Below the pieces are notes generated by a model, which worked only from the letters and a program-made list of their open reading frames with translations, did not search any database and was not told the DNA's origin. Made by a program: the position numbers and the translations under genes. From assembly GCF_029227915.1 (NCBI RefSeq), contig NC_079883.1, forward strand, positions 28,210,001 to 28,274,000: a stretch of DNA of 64,000 nt. Direction: 5' to 3'. This stretch comes from Hydractinia symbiolongicarpus (taxonomy: Eukaryota; Cnidaria; Hydrozoa; Anthoathecata; Hydractiniidae). This document shows, piece after piece, positions 35,214 through 44,779 of the stretch (within the stretch, counting starts at the first letter, position 1; each line of letters opens with the position of its first letter).

Positions 35214-35978
35214 ATTAAAACAAAAATTTCCTTTTTCCTGTTACGGTCAATGTTGTTATGCCTTAGAGGTTCTCGTTCGCTGAAGAAAGAACATTACATC
35301 CATGACATTGAACTGTCAAATGTCATGTCGACGATATAACGAATGATTTATTAAAAAAATAAAAAAAATGTACACCAGCGGCCTATCGGTATAATAACGG
35401 AGCCAACAAGTGTTGTATCTTATGATCGTTCCGTGTGAAAATCAAAAAGATATTTTACAGCTAATTTGCCGCTTCGCCATTCACAATTCGCTCCATAAAA
35501 ACCTCCCTTTGAACTCACCCAACCTCGTCCCCAGTGCTCTTTTACGCCTATCCCACGCATCCCAGGCACTTCCTCCCCAGAGACAATTATACAGATCCGC
35601 CCGTAGGCGGCGAGGGCGGAAATCAAATATTGTTTTTTCTTTTTTTTGAGTTACGAAATGTTAGAACTCGATAAACTCTTCTCCTCTCAGAATGTTTGTG
35701 TACAGCTATATTACGATGTCACTGAAGGGTCACACTTCCATACAAAAAATTGAAACTTCTATACAAAAAATTGAAACTTCCATACAAAAAACTGAAACTT
35801 TTATAAAATCTCTCAAGGTTTTAGAAACGTTTTTGGAACTTCTACAAATTGTTTTTGAAACTTTTATAACACATTTTATTTTTTTCATAAATATTTGAAA
35901 CTCTCCACAGTTTTTAAAACTTGAAAATTCTTGATCAAGCCAAATAGAGATGATCTGAGGAAGAGCTGAAGAGGAAGG

Positions 35979-37133
35979 ATGGATGTCATCCGAGACTATT
36001 TTGTAAAAGGCTTTTCATATTCTGGAATAATTGGGTTATTGAAACATGTTCATGGGATTGAAATTAGTTTATCGACTCTTAAACGAAGACTCAGACAGCA
36101 TGGCTTGAAACGTAGAGCTGTAGAGGGAAATCGTAATTCAAATCAGGAACTTGTTCAAGCAATCCAGCAGGAGATGAATGATAGTGGTTTCATCTTAGGT
36201 TATCGTAGAATGCGAGCAGCAATGATGTCTAGGTCAATTATTTGTCGTCACGAAGACGTAAGATTGATAATAAAATCGTTAAACCCCGAAGGAGTAATTC
36301 TTCGAAAAAACAGACGACTTCACAGACGCAAATATGTTTCGCGAGGGCCTAATTACGCATGGCACATTGACGGTCATGACAAATTGAAACCCTTTGGTTT
36401 TTCGATCCACGGTTGTATTGATGGCTTCTCGAGAAAATTAATCTGGCTTGAAGTGGGATCCTCCAATAAACTCCCGGGAATCGTAGCAAAATTTTATTTA
36501 GACTCGATCAAGAAATTGGGAGGCATACCCAGTCAGATCAAGGCAGATGACGGTACCGAACATTCTTTGATTGAGCCAATTCATGTTTATATACATAGTT
36601 CAACTGACAGTCAAAACAGCTTGGGTTCTTTTAGTATTATCTCTTCCCCGGAAAATCAAAGAATTGAGTCCTACTGGTATACCTTACAGCGTGATCGCAT
36701 TGGTTGGTGGAAATTATTTTTCAGAGATATGACCGACCTAAATGTTTTTACGAGTTCGGATCCTGTGTTAGTCGATTACATACGTTTTTGCTTTATGCCG
36801 TTAATCCGCAAGGAGTTACAGACTGTTCGGGATGAGTGGAATTTACACATTATTTCTAAGAGTAGGAACTCTGCCCCTCGTGGAAGACCGGATGTAATGT
36901 ATTACTTGCCACATTTGTATCATTCCACTGATTGCCTAATAAACGTAGATGCTGATGAAATTGAACAATTTTATCCATGCGTTACCCACAACACAGTTGA
37001 AGATGTTTCCCCCGAGTTTAAGGAGTTCGCACAAACTTTGATGCAGCAAAATGGATGGGACTTTCCTAATGTTGTTTCAAATGCGTTACGTCTGTACATG
37101 TACTTGCTATCAAAGATCGAACAGTATTCATAG
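35979..37133 (+). CDS. IS3-like DDE transposase (integrase core)
   Basis: A 384-residue intact ORF. Residues 1-46 look like a helix-turn-helix (STLKRRLRQHGLKRR). Residues 73-125 carry the HTH_21-like LGYRRMRAAM and end in the linker PNYAWHID that precedes IS3/retroviral-type integrase cores. Candidate catalytic residues are D131 (WHIDGHDK), D190 or D191 (KADDGTEH) and E230 (ENQRIESYW), followed by WWKLFF. Spacing between the second D and E is about 40, close to DD35E with an insertion. This architecture matches 'integrase core domain' proteins of fish and cnidarians. The start ATG is followed at once by the HTH, and the product is nuclear by role. The frame is undisturbed, unlike its neighbours, so this gene may be the last functional part of the element. 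Upstream lie the subterminal repeats. Confidence 0.85.
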   Translation: MDVIRDYFVKGFSYSGIIGLLKHVHGIEISLSTLKRRLRQHGLKRRAVEGNRNSNQELVQAIQQEMNDSGFILGYRRMRAAMMSRSIICRHEDVRLIIKSLNPEGVILRKNRRLHRRKYVSRGPNYAWHIDGHDKLKPFGFSIHGCIDGFSRKLIWLEVGSSNKLPGIVAKFYLDSIKKLGGIPSQIKADDGTEHSLIEPIHVYIHSSTDSQNSLGSFSIISSPENQRIESYWYTLQRDRIGWWKLFFRDMTDLNVFTSSDPVLVDYIRFCFMPLIRKELQTVRDEWNLHIISKSRNSAPRGRPDVMYYLPHLYHSTDCLINVDADEIEQFYPCVTHNTVEDVSPEFKEFAQTLMQQNGWDFPNVVSNALRLYMYLLSKIEQYS

Positions 37134-38556
37134 AACATAGTTAACTGTTTAAACTCTTTTTTTAATCCAAATTTAGTATTACGTGTTTAATATCGAAGTA
37201 TGAAACAGACCCCTTTATAATTTTCAGGCATTCTTCAATTTTCCCAGATATTTATACAATTGACAAAAAAACACAATAAAAATAAATCGGAAAGTTTTTT
37301 ATTGGACCTAAAAACCCTCTTAAAAATTGTATAAAAAAGTGTTAACAAAACAGAATACTGGTAACTCTATTGTCTGTCAGTTCAAACATAACAACAAAAC
37401 AAAAAAGGATCCAAAATCAGTTTAAATGATGTCCAGCTCCCATTCAGATGACTGCAATATATTGCTGAATTCTTCACGGAGTTCGCAATAATTATTATAA
37501 GTTGAAGGAAGTTCTAACCTTGGTGTGCATGTGTGAGCTACTGGTCTACGACTAAAATTCGATTCCGGTCGCGTGAAAATTATTTCTACTGTATCAACAA
37601 CCATGTTATCTGAGCCTGTTATGAACTTCATAAATTTTTTCAACATAATGGTTTCCAAACCTCTCACATAACGCTTTAAATAATTGAATGAGTCTTGTTC
37701 AGCACTGCTACTCGTATGGACATTTTTGAACAAGGCTACAACCTTTTTTGTGGTTGGTTCCAATCTTTCATAAAACTTCACAATATTCTTCATGGATGGA
37801 AATTCTGGCTTCTTTTTTAGCTCTGAAAAGGCAACTTCCCAACATGAGGCTAATTCAATGATAACTGATTTCACATTTGATTCTATTACTACAGTTTTAC
37901 ATTTGAATTGTTCCAAAATTTCAGCAAATTCATCACTGTGAATAACATTCTTACCTTCGTTTTTACCAATGGCTTTTGTCACCAACTGACTTTCATCTGA
38001 TGACAAGTATTTCAGGAATGAAGATATCAGCAGCTCTTCTGGAACTTCTCCGAACAAACAAAAACATAAAAATGCTCGACTCAAACTGATTGGAAAGTAA
38101 CCAGTGTCAACATACCCCTTTAAAATGATCATGCCAATTGCACGCCACTCTTGTTTGTACAAATCATGCCGAACTTGTGGCACTCTTTCTTGCTCGCCAT
38201 ACAAGTATGCATTGTATACTTCATTCCAGAATGAAGAATAAATATCCCGAGAAACACCTGACCCTGCACCATTATCTTCTTGGCCACGAGGATCAATCCA
38301 TATATATCGGATGTCATCTGTCACATTGATCTAAGATGAAAACCAAAATACATTGTGTCATTGTGTTATATTCTATATATGCAACAAGATAACTGTTTAT
38401 TATAGAAGAGCAACATAAAATAATGAACTGAATACTTTAGACTTTATGACTTAGGATACCTGGACTTGAAGATAACTAATTCAATAAGACATGTGTTTTT
38501 ATTATTGTTTTATTGTATTCAGAGAGGGTCTTAATCATTGTAAAATACAAAATGGT

Positions 38557-38594
38557 CTCACCTGCTTAGTAATAAATAAATCCATCAAATCTTT
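38557..38594. repeat. 38-bp duplication flanking the Pao insertion, copy 1
   Basis: Identical to 42965-43002. It contains the last 33 bases of HECT-gene exon 2 and the start of its donor (CAG^GTGAG on the minus strand), so a second usable donor now sits 250 bp from exon 3. Confidence 0.9.
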
Positions 38595-38845
38595 GCTGCC
38601 ATTGTTCTTTTACATAATGGTAATGGCCTTAGGTATGTCTCAAGGGACACATATATATATGATGTTTTTTGCATTTTGCAGTCAGTTGGAAATTAGTCTT
38701 CTTACTAGTAAGACATGACATAAAAAATTGTTTCTGTCATTTTTTGTTCATTCTTGGTGTTGACCAAGTATTTGTCATTCTTGGTGTTTACCAAACACAT
38801 TGTTCTTGTTGCTGCACTGCATAAGTTAGGCATAAACTTTACCAC

Positions 38846-39003
38846 TTTTGTTGCTGCCAAAGTAAGCGACACAATTTAACAAACTCGTATTTGTTTTCAA
38901 CGGCTAAAATAATTATATTAGTTAGTTTCTGTATAATTATTTTAGCCGTTGAAAACAAATACGAGTTTGTTAAATTGTGTCGCTTACTTTGGCAGCAACA
39001 AAA
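38846..39003. repeat. Perfect 72-bp inverted repeat (foldback)
   Basis: Arms 38846-38917 and 38932-39003 are exactly complementary around a 14-nt loop. It directly adjoins the 3' end of the minus-strand BEL/Pao fragment. No ORF; origin unknown. Confidence 0.92.
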
Positions 39004-42000
39004 TTCTACCGAGATGAAAGGTTAAATCCTCCTGCTTGACAAATATGTGTCAAGCAGGAGGATTTAACCCTTATTCCTCGAGAAGCATAATCAGCTGGAT
39101 TGTCTTTAGTGTTTATGTAATGCCATTGATTAACATCTGAGTGATCTTTAATGATTTGAATCCGATTTGCCACAAAAATTTTAAATCTTTTTTCTGAATT
39201 ACAAATGTAACTCAGAATGACCTGACTATCCGTCCTGAAGAATTCATTATTTATGGGATATGTTAATTCCTTCTTTATGACCTTGGACATCTTGATCGAC
39301 AAAACAGCAGCGGTTAACTCCAAACGTGGTATTGATATAAACTTCTTTGGGGCCACTCTTGATTTTCCAGATACAAAGGCACAATGTATCCTCCCTCTTT
39401 CATTTTTTATCCTCAAATAAGACACCTGACCATAACCACTACTACATGCATCAGAAAAATGATGTAATTCAGACTCTACTATTTCTCCAAAATCTTTTGG
39501 ATGAAAACATCGATTTATTTTTACATTTTCTAACTTTCTAACATTACTTATCCACTTATGCCAATTCTCCACAACGTCTACTGGTACTCTGTCATCCCAA
39601 CCAAAGTTGTCATAACACAGATGTTGGATTATTCTTCTACCTCGAAGAATGAACGGTCCAATAAATCCTAATGGATCATATATTGAACTTAGCATCGATA
39701 ACATCCCTCTGCGTGTCATGGGCTTTTCACGAAATGTAACCTTGAACTCAAAACAATCGTACTCCAAATTGCACGAAATTCTAAGAGCTCTTTCCATAGT
39801 TGGGTCACTACAAGTGTTAATATCGAGTGGTGAAGATGAAATCTTCTTCTTGTCGTCTGGAAGACTCTCTAAAACGTTGGAATCATTACATACAAATTTC
39901 ACAAGGTTAAATCCTCCTGCTTGACACATATTTACTACCTGCTTTATTAATTCAATCGCCACTTTTCTTTCCCTCACAGACTTTAATAAATCATCTACAT
40001 AGAAGTTATTTCTTAGTATTTCAGCTGCTGCAATTCCAAATAGATCTATAAAGTCGGTTGCAGTTCGTTTAAGGGCATAATTACTGCAACTAGGCGATGA
40101 TGCTGCTCCAAACACATGAACACACATTTCATGGTCTACTGGATCTTGATTGATATCGTTTTGTGGCCACCACAAATAACGATACATACTTCTATGCTTT
40201 TCAGAAACTCTCACTTGATAAAACATTTTTTCTATGTCTGCCATGAATGCAATTAATTCTTCTCTAAACCTCATCACAACTCCTACAAGTTGATTGGTTA
40301 GATCAGGTCCAGACATTAACATTTTGTTGATTGAAACCCCGTCAAACTCAGCCCCACAATCAAACACAACTCGGATTATGCCAGGTTTATTTTCATTATA
40401 TACACCGTGGTGTGGGATATACCATGTTTTTCCTTCTGGAGGTGGATTATCCGATTGTTTCGCAAACCCACTAGTTATCATGTCTTCCATGAATTTCTTG
40501 TAGTCTGTGAAGAACTTGTCATTTCTTTTGAAACGCCTTTTAAGTTGTTCTAACCTTCGTTCTGCTTGTTTGCGATTGTTTGGTAGAATAATTTCTGGGT
40601 CCTTTAATGGTAATGGCAAGATATAGTGTCCATCTTCATACTTGGTCTCTTTTTCCATTAACTGCATGAATTTGCGATCTTCAAACAAAATTTCCTCGGA
40701 ATCTGGCTCATTCACCTTCAAGTCAGCAAGTTTTGGCTCTGTAAAATCATGAAGATAAATTTGATGCAGCATTTCTGCAATGCCCGAGTCGTGTATACTT
40801 TCTTTTGCGACGAAGCTAGTTGCTGATGATGATACGCTTTCAATGTTGCTAATAATAATGTTATGACAATTGATACTTCTGGCGCTACCATTTGACTGAA
40901 TTGGTCCAACAACACACCAACCAAGCTTAGTTCTAACGGCATATGGTCCGCCCATCATACTAGAGATCAATTCTAGTGGTTCCAGAGCTTTCACACAATT
41001 TGCACCAATTAAGAGACCAACGTCCCCTGGAGTTTTCGAAATTTCGTCTTCAATATCATGCAAATAATTCCAACTTGATATCTTTTTTGAAGTAATAATA
41101 TCCTCAGAATTCATTGGGAGATCGTGCTTTGTGTACGACTTTGGTAACTTGATCCAACATTTTTCCAATTTTGGTATTGCTGTACAAACCTCCAAACCAG
41201 TCACTACCGAAGATGAAAACGTCCGATCGCCGTTCATCGTTTTAACAGTCACTGAAGTTTTTGGAGCATCAATATCAAGGGCACAAACCAAACTTTCTTT
41301 TACAAAGGTCCCTTGACTGCAACAGTCCAGCATTGCAAAAGTTTGAATTTCTTTTCCAGTATTTGTATGGCGGAGAATAACAGGTACGACACACATACTG
41401 GTAGCATTGTAATTATTTTCGAAGCCAGTAGCAGAAGATATTAAAGGTTTCTGCTCGTCTTCTTCCTTTTCTTTATTTGACTTCTTCAGTTTGAAACCAT
41501 GGAGTCCAGTAGGGTGGTTGCCATCACAGGTTTTACATTTTCTGCGCTTAGAACAAATTCTAGCATAATGACTTTTACTAATTGGCTCATAACCTCCATA
41601 ACAAAGTCTTTTCTCTGATAACAACTTGCTACGATCATCAACTGTTTTGGATAAGAATTTGTTGCATTCGTCTGGATCGTGGTTTCCGTCACATATCTGG
41701 CATTGATTCTTATCAGATGATTTATATCCTGAAGTATTTTTATCTTTGGTACGAGTAAAATTACATTTTAGCTTTCTTCTGTTGTTCGAACCATTTCCAT
41801 ACATTTCAATTGCTTCACGTGAAAACATAGGGTCACAAACTAGTGTAGCCTCCTCATCTATAAATCTTTCAAAATCTGCAAATACTGGTTCTTTCTCACA
41901 CTTTCTCAAAGCAAACACTCTTCTATTCCATTTATCTCTCAAATACATGGGTAATTTGGTGAGGAGAAGACAAATGGTGTCTGGATTATCCAATGCATTC

Positions 42001-42962
42001 CAAGATAATATTGAACACAGATTTTTGCATTTGACAAGAAAGTTATGGAACTTTCTGAAAGCGGATTTATCGCCAGACTTTACAGCAGGCCATAGTCTTA
42101 TTTCTCTACGATATGCAGCAACTATAGCATATTGATCACCAAATTTTTCTTTAAGTAATTCTCTAGCAGTAACGTATCCAATGTCTGCAGGTAGATGTAT
42201 GCAATGCTGTATCAGATCTTTAGCATCCCCACTGGTAAATTTAATCAGCCTAATCAATCTTCCCCTGGCATCAAGAACATTCTTTTCGACAATTCTTCAA
42301 ACATTGAAATAAAATACGAATAGTTTATTGGGTTACCGTTAAAAGATTCCATATCTACTTCTGGAGCAGATTGTTGGCGTATCAAGTTGCAGAACATGTC
42401 ACTTATATTTCCTTTTTCGGGTAAAGGATTTGCCCATTTATGCGCCAATTCTGGTCTAGCTTCGAAACCTGATAGTGACCATTTCTCAGTGTTGTCAGCA
42501 TGAATAGTTTTATGAATATAATCCTTTGATTTTAACTTAACATGACTGGGTGGTAACATGACAGATGCCTGAGATTCTCTTTCTAAGTCTTCATATACTT
42601 TATTCCGCGCTTGGGATTTGGCTATTTCTGCTTCTAATTCCAACTGCTTGCTTAAGTGTTCTGCCTTCTGACGGTTTTCTAACAACGACGCTTCTGCCTT
42701 TAATTCGGCTAACCTGATTTTTTCCTGAATTGCCTTTTCTTTGGTTGATGATTGCGATCTACTTGATTTACTCGAACCTGATGAGTACTTTGATAAACTT
42801 TTCCTATTGGATTTTTGAGAATTTTTCTCTAAACGATTTTCAATTTCTGCTATCCAATTTTTTGACTTGTGTTTCAAAGCAAATACTTGCTCATCGATGT
42901 CTACAAAATAGTTAGCTTCGTCTATATCACTAGATGGATTTATCTGGCGATTTAACTCACAA
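39004..42962 (-). pseudogene. BEL/Pao gag-pol fragment inside the transposon
   Basis: Reading minus, coding sequence starts abruptly at 42,962 inside gag, continues as a gag ORF to 42,254, shifts by one base near 42,285, then runs open for about 1,080 codons to 39,006. Motifs in order: zinc knuckles CQICDGNHDPDEC and CKTCDGNHPTGLHG, protease-site region AMLDCCSQGTF (Cys where Gly is usual), GWCVVGPI, the reverse transcriptase segment GVYNENKPGIIRVVFDCGAEF, palm ADIEKMFYQV and NNFYVDDLL, then RNase H with FFRTDSQVILSYICNS and NPADYASRG. Integrase, LTRs and the start of gag are missing. It is much better preserved than the copy at 23,669-27,614, so it is younger. The end is replaced by a hairpin built from an internal piece of the element. 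Confidence 0.9.
39020..39069. repeat. 22-bp hairpin copied from within the Pao pol gene
   Basis: Arms 39020-39041 and 39048-39069. The same 22 bases occur at 39905-39926 in the RT coding region (CQAGGFNL). The inverted part plus loop matches 29 bases of that region. Confidence 0.9.
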
Positions 42963-42964
42963 TA

Positions 42965-43002
42965 CTCACCTGCTTAGTAATAAATAAATCCATCAAATCT
43001 TT
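42965..43002. repeat. 38-bp duplication flanking the Pao insertion, copy 2
   Basis: The original exon-2 end of the HECT-like gene; identical to 38557-38594. Pao gag coding sequence starts immediately beside it. Confidence 0.9.
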
Positions 43003-44089
43003 CTTTATCGTCATGTGGTGTATTTTAGCAATGTGCTGTACTACGTCTGTAACATCAGAACTTGCGCTTGCATTATCCAAATTCGTTCACACTGGTTGCT
43101 ATAGCTATTGACGCTCCAGCTAAAGTTTGAATCCTTCTTTCTCTCAATTGATTTAAAGATGGCCTTTCTTCTTCGTTTTCATTTGAAAGTTAAGTCATCA
43201 TCAACACAAGAAGGTTCAAACAAATTGCCAAACAAGTTCAAGTTGCTATCTGCAATACAAGAAGCACTATACTCATTATTTTGGATGCAAATAATACATT
43301 GGTTTCCGATATAGCTGCAATTACAAACAGAACATATACGTCACCTGCTAATTTCCTTTGGTTCTGTTATTGCATGGCAAAAGTTCTCAGTGAAAGTTTC
43401 AACGTAATCATTTTGTTTATTAAAAGTTTCCTGACCAGCTTCTTCATACTCGTTATCATGGTCATATGCTACAGATTTAGTTGATAAAACAAACCAACAC
43501 TTCGATAAAAATAGACCTTTCCTTTCAATGTATGCCCAAAGGTCTTCATCTTCATCTAATGTTTCCCCATTTGGACCACATAACGACTTCATGCACTCTG
43601 ATTCTGCCTCCATGTAACTATTACAGTCATTTTGGTCAAAATACAACTTCAAAGCTTTGTATTTAAGCTCTTCAAAATTCAATGGTGTTCCAACTTCCAC
43701 CTTGATGAATCGATATCCACCCCCATCTTTCTGTTTTACTATTTCGTATCCTTCTCTCGATGGATTATATCGCTCCCATTTCACTTGTACTTTTTTGATC
43801 TTTCGAGGTGTGTAACTTTTCAAAGAGGATGATGAGGCCTTTTGACGAACTCTTGACAATAAATTGCCAAGACGAGTTTCTGTTTTCCGTTTTTTGTTAG
43901 CACTATTAGTGCTCGAAGAACTTGAAGAACCGTCATAGGGGTTGTTTGCATTACCATAACTACTTGCTGTTGACTTTGAAGTATTCATTATGTACAATTC
44001 TACCTGTCTGCGTAGCGTACAATTTGCTCAAGCACGGCGTCCATGTTTGTTTATAATTTAGTATCATTAATTTTACGGTAGCCGATAGA

Positions 44090-44300
44090 ACCTTTCAAAA
44101 AAAGTTATAGAAGTTCCAAAGTTTTTTATAGAAGTTTTTTGAATTTTTTAATGAAAGTTTTTATTATTATGAATAGAAGTTTGCATTTTTTTCAATAATA
44201 GTTACTTCAATTATTTGTATAGAAGTTTTTGTTTTTTCAAACAGTCTAAATTTTTTGAATAGAAGTCTCATTTTTTTTGTATGGAATTGTGACCCTTCAG
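44090..44300 (-). repeat. Right subterminal repeat array of the IS3EU-like element
   Basis: Several degenerate units of (C/T)ATAGAAGTTT..TTTTT, the mirror of AAACTTCTATACAAAAA units at 35,735-35,900. Such arrays commonly bind transposase; that role here is inference. Confidence 0.75.
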
Positions 44301-44779
44301 TGCCATGGTACTATATTAATTTCTTACTGGGTGGATCTTTTGTGATTTAACCAAAGATCAATTTAGCAACAATATATAGTTGAGTTAATGACTTGAATTG
44401 ACTACAGCAGTCGTGAACAGGCTGGTAATGAAGGATCAATCAGTAGTCAGAGGAGTCCTATCACTTATTTTTTTGATACAGCAGAAACATTATTGGATTG
44501 GATTAGCTAGCTAGCTTAGCTTTTGACTTCAATACACTTATGTGATCGCTTATGTAAAACACATTTTTAAGCCTCTATGTATGCATTGATCACTTTCCTC
44601 TGAGTTATTTGAGTTAGTTATTTATGTATTTATTTATTTTTCGATTATTTTATTTTATTTTTTTAAAAATTAGTAGTAAACTGTGCATACTTTGTAAAAC
44701 GATCTTATTTAGGTGGCCATCACATCGAATTAGTTTTTACTATTTGATGGTCTCCTCCGTACTTACTAAACTGAGGAAC

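Follow-up and report, generated by a model that had tools for sequence, protein, structure and literature searches.

The 64,000-nucleotide stretch of Hydractinia symbiolongicarpus DNA analysed here (assembly GCF_029227915.1, contig NC_079883.1, forward-strand positions 28,210,001–28,274,000; hereafter the window, in whose own numbering coordinates are given) contains a single DNA transposon at 35712–44310, in which a transposase gene faces a gene for a protein resembling HECT ubiquitin ligases. The locus raises the question of whether a transposon can keep a ubiquitin ligase of its own, or whether the two genes have come together by accident. In the interpretation that we favour, with a probability of roughly 0.7, the window element belongs to an IS3EU-type family of cut-and-paste transposons with two genes, the second of which most likely encodes a working E3 ubiquitin ligase that would act in trans for the spread of the transposon. 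On the best reading of the evidence, the HECT gene is a long-standing second gene and not accidental cargo.

Two convergent genes between matched ends

The preliminary description of this locus had delimited the element by inverted termini, a 6-bp duplication and subterminal arrays, and these boundaries stand. The sequence CTATAT at 35706–35711 recurs identically at 44311–44316 as the target-site duplication, and the left terminal inverted repeat (35712–35749, plus strand, starting with TACGATG) agrees with the right one (44273–44310, minus strand) at 35 of 38 bases, the element as a whole reading TACGATG...CATGGTA. The subterminal arrays at 35734–35808 (plus strand, with a unit period of 21 bp and ACTTCYATA in three units) and 44106–44277 (minus strand, with the same kind of unit) both point inward; ACTTCYATA occurs in three inward copies at each end, and not once in the body of the element or elsewhere in the 64-kb window. 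The termini, TACGATGT..CCATGGTA, have the TA..TA form of the IS3EU superfamily, and the duplication has exactly the 6 bp usual for it, both here and in the 12 further elements described below.

The transposase gene (35979–37133, plus strand) has a stop-free frame of 384 residues, which matched the integrase core profile PF24764 (E = 2.1e-30), bearing out the earlier claim of an intact IS3-like transposase, and open copies 94–95% identical to it lie at other places in the genome. Judging from the alignment, its catalytic residues are likely D131, D190 and E230 (own numbering), all three of which are present according to a residue census; some open sister transposases deviate, with V at position 131 (M11 and M12) or G at 190 (M21). 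As expected of the DDE transposases of IS3EU, which are kin to IS3 and IS481, the transposase of the sister copy M2 matched the NCBIfam profiles of IS3 (E = 7.4e-10) and IS481 (E = 2.5e-9), both under the curated cut-offs. Upstream of the core, weak matches alone were obtained, some of them helix-turn-helix-like, no search having been aimed at the HHCC zinc domain. The IS3EU label given earlier agrees with these profile matches and with the hallmarks stated in the accessible part of the published account (TA..TA ends and usually 6-bp duplications; PMC10045372).

The second gene is convergent with the first, 288 bp lying between them. Its last exon (37422–38330, minus strand; 302 residues, open, with AHTC kept) matched the HECT profile PF00632 (E = 4.8e-10; score 40 bits, cut-off 23.9), the best-matching stretch being the C-lobe only, and is identical to the public annotation LOC130656470 of H. 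symbiolongicarpus. It is preceded by the remaining original intron (38331–38556, minus strand), into whose insert-facing side the uninterrupted relative P0170 continues directly from the upstream exon, and by that upstream exon (42970–44044, minus strand), which was found by tblastn of P0038, P0169 and P0170, had its start and splice junctions placed by visual inspection, and encodes an N-terminal domain with GGGYRF followed by a CxxC...CxxC motif. The upstream exon is broken by a TGA at 43341–43343 and by frame breaks near 43190 and 43085, and the last exon has lost 12 residues present in P0002 and P0169, as seen in the alignment and by comparison against the window. Because of these lesions, the HECT gene of the window copy is a pseudogene, despite its open annotated last exon. 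The convergent HECT-like passenger gene described earlier, with the HTC motif of its last exon, is confirmed, whereas the broken state of the gene and a retroelement fragment nested in it had gone unnoticed. Since the transposase is open and both ends are present, the window copy may still be mobile; with its own HECT gene dead, the HECT protein would need to come from other copies.

Linkage and joint descent of the two genes

The 481-Mb H. symbiolongicarpus genome was searched with the window transposase and the HECT relative P0002 as queries, and the best candidates were scored, so that the counts are lower bounds. At least 118 transposase matches and at least 122 HECT matches clustered to 104 and 94 places, respectively. 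Among the matches scored, a transposase lay within 6 kb of 53 of the 94 HECT-like places, in convergent orientation in 50, on the same strand in two and divergently in one, whereas 2,000 runs of random placement gave a mean of 0.27 linked places and a maximum of 3. An accidental neighbourhood of the two genes was rejected on these counts. By identity to P0002, linked HECT places numbered 11 of 16 (80% or more), 10 of 15 (56–79%), 24 of 29 (40–55%), 3 of 8 (30–39%) and 5 of 26 (below 30%). By identity to the window transposase, a HECT match lay within 6 kb of 10 of 11 transposase places (80% or more), 8 of 10 (60–79%), 25 of 31 (47–59%), none of 16 (42–46%) and 7 of 36 (below 42%).

Delimited copies show that the linkage lies within elements. 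Thirty-seven transposase groups, the window's included, were examined in 37 merged stretches round the best matches, a non-random sample in which many stretches stop short of at least one end, so that failure to delimit an element is little informative. The rule applied, which required TA..TA ends and considered 6-bp duplications alone, gave 14 candidates, 12 of which were accepted, with exact 6-bp duplications and 28–30 of 30 terminal bases matching; M1 (four mismatches in the duplication) and M6 (A-rich ends, one mismatch in the duplication) were rejected as chance. HECT sequence was found in 10 of the 12 further elements, on nine contigs and always convergent with the transposase, M15 and M20 containing the C-terminal part of HECT only. 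Moreover, some of the N-terminal part of the second gene is present in all 12. M32 and M33 are without the HECT part, yet have clean ends and duplications, M32 being an internal-deletion derivative of the M35 family. In M0 and M2, which lie on different contigs and are 98.5% identical over 5 kb, both genes are open (transposase, 403 residues; HECT, 681 and 701 residues in one exon), and M35 may be a third such copy, with a predicted two-exon HECT gene. Thus, other copies in the same genome do carry both genes, the point that the preliminary description had put forward for checking. Twelve flank stretches were fetched, of which eight were delimited and four (M18, M25, M27 and M30) were not; M10 and M11 were not delimited although their ends were expected within the stretches, and no clean ends were found for L078, L079 and L064. 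L077 proved to be a further delimited element of 4,663 bp, with 30 of 30 end bases matching and ATTTCG duplicated.

The subterminal units vary by subfamily, most of them keeping an ACTTC core. The unit is ACTTCYATA in the window family, ACTTCTATT in M29, AACTTCTAT in M19, ACTTCCCGC in M15 and M20, ACTTCTGCA in M32 and M35, and CTTCTGCAT and TTCCCTTCA in M0 and M2, while M33 has a different unit. Such variation around a mostly constant core is as expected if the units are transposase sites, and they look like sites evolving together with their own transposase. Because both genes of the window copy start just inside the arrays, binding there could also tune the promoters of both.

The two genes have descended together. 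Their distances correlate over 29 elements (r = 0.92), many of them near-copies and all selected because sufficient residues of each gene could be aligned, and also over nine representatives (r = 0.51; permutation P = 0.001). Between subfamilies (10 pairs), the proportion of synonymous differences (pS) was 0.73–0.91, that is, saturated or nearly so, and the proportion of nonsynonymous differences (pN) was 0.21–0.34 for the transposase and 0.27–0.38 for HECT; protein-guided alignment favours such a high-pS, low-pN outcome and was judged not to create it. Over this long term, both proteins have been under constraint.

Nature and possible role of the second protein

The assignment of the second protein to the HECT family rests on several parts of the domain. 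Besides the window exon, the 701-residue protein of M2 scored above the curated threshold of the HECT profile (25.9 against 23.9 bits), and the N-lobe is covered in the conspecific relative P0169 (HECT positions 35–286 of 306). The catalytic cysteine of the C-lobe is retained in the HTC motif of 30 of the 33 copies covering it (the exceptions being M9, M27 and M30) and is invariant in an alignment of 34 relatives. Against PDB profiles, the HECT part gave 14 matches, all of them HECT ligases and all weak (E = 1e-4 to 1e-2), and the 701-residue protein alone gave no match up to E = 0.1. Outside the HECT part, P0170, the Clytia protein P0171, L051 (310–2412), L077 and L078 share an N-terminal domain (VKQ..GGG.RF, later CxxC...CxxC) that had no Pfam match above cut-off and is possibly a substrate- or DNA-binding part.

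These features bear on whether the second protein is an enzyme. In transposons with two genes, such as Harbinger and RAG1-RAG2, the second protein is regarded as a non-catalytic partner, and the protein described here might likewise be a partner of the transposase in tethering to DNA or chromatin, nuclear import or complex assembly, the HECT fold serving for binding only. The N-terminal domain and CxxC...CxxC motif common to the subfamilies, the convergent layout in nearly all linked places (50/53) and the weak similarity of the HECT part to known ligases in the 14 PDB profile matches would all suit such a partner; the HTC cysteine, which would be superfluous for a scaffold, has nevertheless been kept in 30 of 33 copies and throughout the 34 relatives, and we regard a non-catalytic partner as rather unlikely.

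Partners were also sought beside the more divergent transposases. On the opposite strand of L077, which belongs to the class of 42–46% transposase identity, an N-terminal domain of the main-family type and HECT-lobe-like frames were recognised by eye, and among the four loci without a HECT match that had not yet been delimited, a whole or partial partner was found in three (L064, L077 and L078), consisting of the N-lobe and N-terminal part only in L078 and of the C-lobe only in L064. The divergent C-lobe pair aligned to the main family with STC opposite HTC (hhalign E = 5.8e-4 in a single comparison, probability 29%), and the divergent N-lobe pair also aligned (E = 4.1e-4, probability 35%). 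Against PDB, the N-lobe pair gave 15 matches up to E = 1, all HECT ligases (best E = 0.06), and the C-lobe pair gave four matches up to E = 1, none of them HECT; none of the partner pieces in L064, L077 and L078 reached the Pfam HECT threshold. With moderate confidence, these partners are taken as HECT proteins. No useful relatives were found among 59 and 25 pattern stretches of the viral contig collections, and 20 stretches of prokaryote contigs gave one distant transposase relative (L001), of no use for HECT. L001 is an intron-rich relative in a bin of sponge bacterial symbionts and is probably host DNA.

A number of observations weigh against a two-gene transposon. Among the matches scored, no transposase lies within 6 kb of 41 of the 94 HECT places, chiefly in the class below 30% identity (21 of 26 unlinked), and some of these may be host genes. 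With P0002 as the query and nearest-transposase assignment, 55 of the 104 transposase places are partnerless (54 by a looser count), few of which were inspected locally. Six loci (L062 and L063, which are M32 and M33, together with L064, L077, L078 and L079) gave no match to the main-family HECT profile, no HECT-like frame was found in L079 on local inspection, and the matches that identify the divergent partners are weaker. Among the nine representatives, M9 and M25 have degraded transposases. The HECT gene is broken in many copies, including that of the window, and within families (six pairs) the ratio of nonsynonymous to synonymous rates (dN/dS) was 0.58–2.85 for HECT against 0.23–0.75 for the transposase, the differences being few and the HECT range leaving out one pair without synonymous change. 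Such ratios fit copies that decay after insertion, but are no sign of constraint.

Two further explanations draw on these points. Unlinked places would be expected if the HECT sequences were host genes repeatedly entered or flanked by related transposons. A host gene standing beside the element is contradicted by the delimited copies, in ten of which, on nine contigs, both genes lie convergently inside matching termini and exact duplications, and the correlated distances likewise speak against this explanation, which we consider extremely improbable. The second explanation is that an ancestor captured a host HECT gene once, which has been carried along ever since without influencing transposition. 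The broken HECT genes, the slight constraint within families and the clean ends and duplications of M32 and M33 would accord with idle cargo of this kind. Idle cargo would decay, however, whereas between subfamilies the HECT protein has been kept about as well as the transposase, with joint descent and a retained cysteine, and copies with deletions can be mobilised in trans by other elements; it is thus an improbable account. The overall pattern is that of a gene on which the persistence of lineages would depend, even as individual copies decay.

Five of the 41 unlinked HECT places were inspected. Transposase matches were found in L034 and L057, and none in the stretches inspected at L049, L054 and L059; L059 and its neighbour M4, 5.5 kb apart, have the appearance of a single gene interrupted by an insertion. 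At L018/L019 (C13:6773707-6783300), about 4 kb separates two equal-scoring transposases of the same orientation, with a HECT partner beside one and none by the other in the stretch examined.

If the second gene is indeed a working part of the transposon, the following scheme may be drawn. IS3EU transposases cut at the ends of the element and insert it with a 6-bp stagger. The first gene encodes a DDE transposase of this kind, which would recognise TACGATGG-like termini and the subterminal arrays and make the 6-bp duplications. The convergent second gene encodes a protein in which an N-terminal domain of its own and the CxxC...CxxC motif precede a HECT ubiquitin-ligase domain; this protein would ubiquitinate some factor that restricts transposition or participates in it. 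By analogy with the kinase and dioxygenase of fungal IS3EU elements and the deubiquitinases of Helitrons, a regulator of the host or of the transposase is the likeliest role; the preliminary description had likewise suggested that the ligase could act on the transposase or on host silencing factors. As the target, a host silencing or repair factor is our first choice, at somewhat less than even odds; the transposase itself is a less probable candidate; action without catalysis, as a scaffold or cofactor, seems unlikely, and some other role slightly more so. A wider generalisation, which we regard as doubtful, would be that animal IS3EU elements are two-component as a rule, requiring their own HECT protein for transposition or escape from silencing, that this protein and the transposase have diversified jointly from a time before the present subfamilies arose, and that the scattered HECT-like genes annotated in the genomes of cnidarians, fish and echinoderms derive from such elements.

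The nested insert and comparison with known systems

The HECT-like gene of the window copy is interrupted by a secondary insert of 4,370 bp (38595–42964, minus strand), composed of fold-back DNA and a BEL/Pao fragment that matched Peptidase_A17 (E = 3.6e-42) and, weakly, DUF1759 and reverse transcriptase. It is flanked by perfect 38-bp direct repeats at 38557–38594 (minus strand; exon end and splice donor) and 42965–43002 (minus strand; end of the upstream HECT exon), and a repeat search revealed a perfect 72-bp inverted repeat with a 14-bp loop inside it (38846–39003). No pair resembling long terminal repeats (LTRs) was present for the insert among the 20 largest direct-repeat families listed; a 38-bp duplication is too long for usual LTR integration. 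P0170 is continuous from the upstream exon into 38594–38538 beside the last exon, with 19 of 19 residues identical, and the delimited sisters M12 and M24 lack the insert, both aligning on either side of it with a 38-bp overlap. From this continuity and the uninterrupted sisters, we infer that the insert is later than the element, whose original length was about 4.2 kb.

A segment of 28–29 bp from the BEL/Pao coding frame reappears two times at the insert edge, one of these copies being inverted (39017–39072 and 39903–39933). With its perfect 38-bp repeats and 72-bp fold-back, the region 38557–43002 resembles the outcome of template-switching repair or misassembly more than that of usual LTR integration. 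Misassembly, by which the window copy would really be uninterrupted, concerns the insert alone and does not compete with the explanations weighed above. The perfect fold-back with further inverted pieces of the insert's internal sequence at one edge, the perfect repeats on both sides and the two sisters without the insert are compatible with it, while the 4.4-kb length and largely open BEL/Pao frames speak for real DNA; on balance, misassembly appears unlikely.

Transposons have been reported, in the accessible parts of the articles, to carry deubiquitinases (PMC9741609) as well as kinases and DNA demethylases (PMC12730594). If many subfamilies have retained a ubiquitin ligase as their second gene, this would suggest a mobile element that sets ubiquitin marks to its own advantage, and the two near-identical copies with both genes open provide a tractable pair for asking what a transposon must control in its host. 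In addition, counts of HECT-like genes in invertebrate genomes may partly be counts of transposons. No publication combining IS3EU and HECT was found in the accessible literature, which did not extend to Repbase, subscription papers and supplements, where an earlier annotation may exist; nor was a paper on a transposon-encoded HECT ligase found among the titles and abstract starts of the matches listed.

Compared with known systems, the window gene shares the HTC motif of the C-lobe, and profile matches, with HECT E3 ligases (HUWE1, AREL1, UBE3A and their kin), which are only distant relatives, its N-terminal domain having no Pfam match above cut-off. The published IS3EU elements have the same TA..TA termini, 6-bp duplications and IS3/IS481-related DDE transposase, but the main text of that account, as far as accessible, mentions neither HECT nor ubiquitin (PMC10045372). 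Styx of Zymoseptoria also has an IS3EU-like transposase, and its authors propose a two-protein ancestral IS3EU; it differs in having four reading frames (transposase, GATA-like, CCHC-like and DUF3577), HECT and ubiquitin going unmentioned in the part of the article available (PMC10853768). The fungal TET-positive IS3EU elements carry an alpha-kinase gene whose orientation is opposite to that of the transposase and, placed between these two, a TET/JBP dioxygenase gene, which the author links to escape from silencing (PMC12730594). These elements resemble the window element in their 6-bp duplications, in the opposite orientations of transposase and partner gene, and in their ends (TAYGG..CCRTA, from which the window start TACGATG differs); they differ in their fungal hosts and in their partners, the accessible text again containing no mention of HECT or ubiquitin (PMC12730594). 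Helitrons with deubiquitinases (VTD, in some cases OTU as well) are, like the window element, transposons with an enzyme of the ubiquitin system; as described in the accessible part of the report, those enzymes take ubiquitin off their targets, are encoded inside the Helitron reading frame and occur in rolling-circle elements (PMC9741609), whereas the element described here is of the cut-and-paste type and would attach ubiquitin through the product of a separate, convergent gene.

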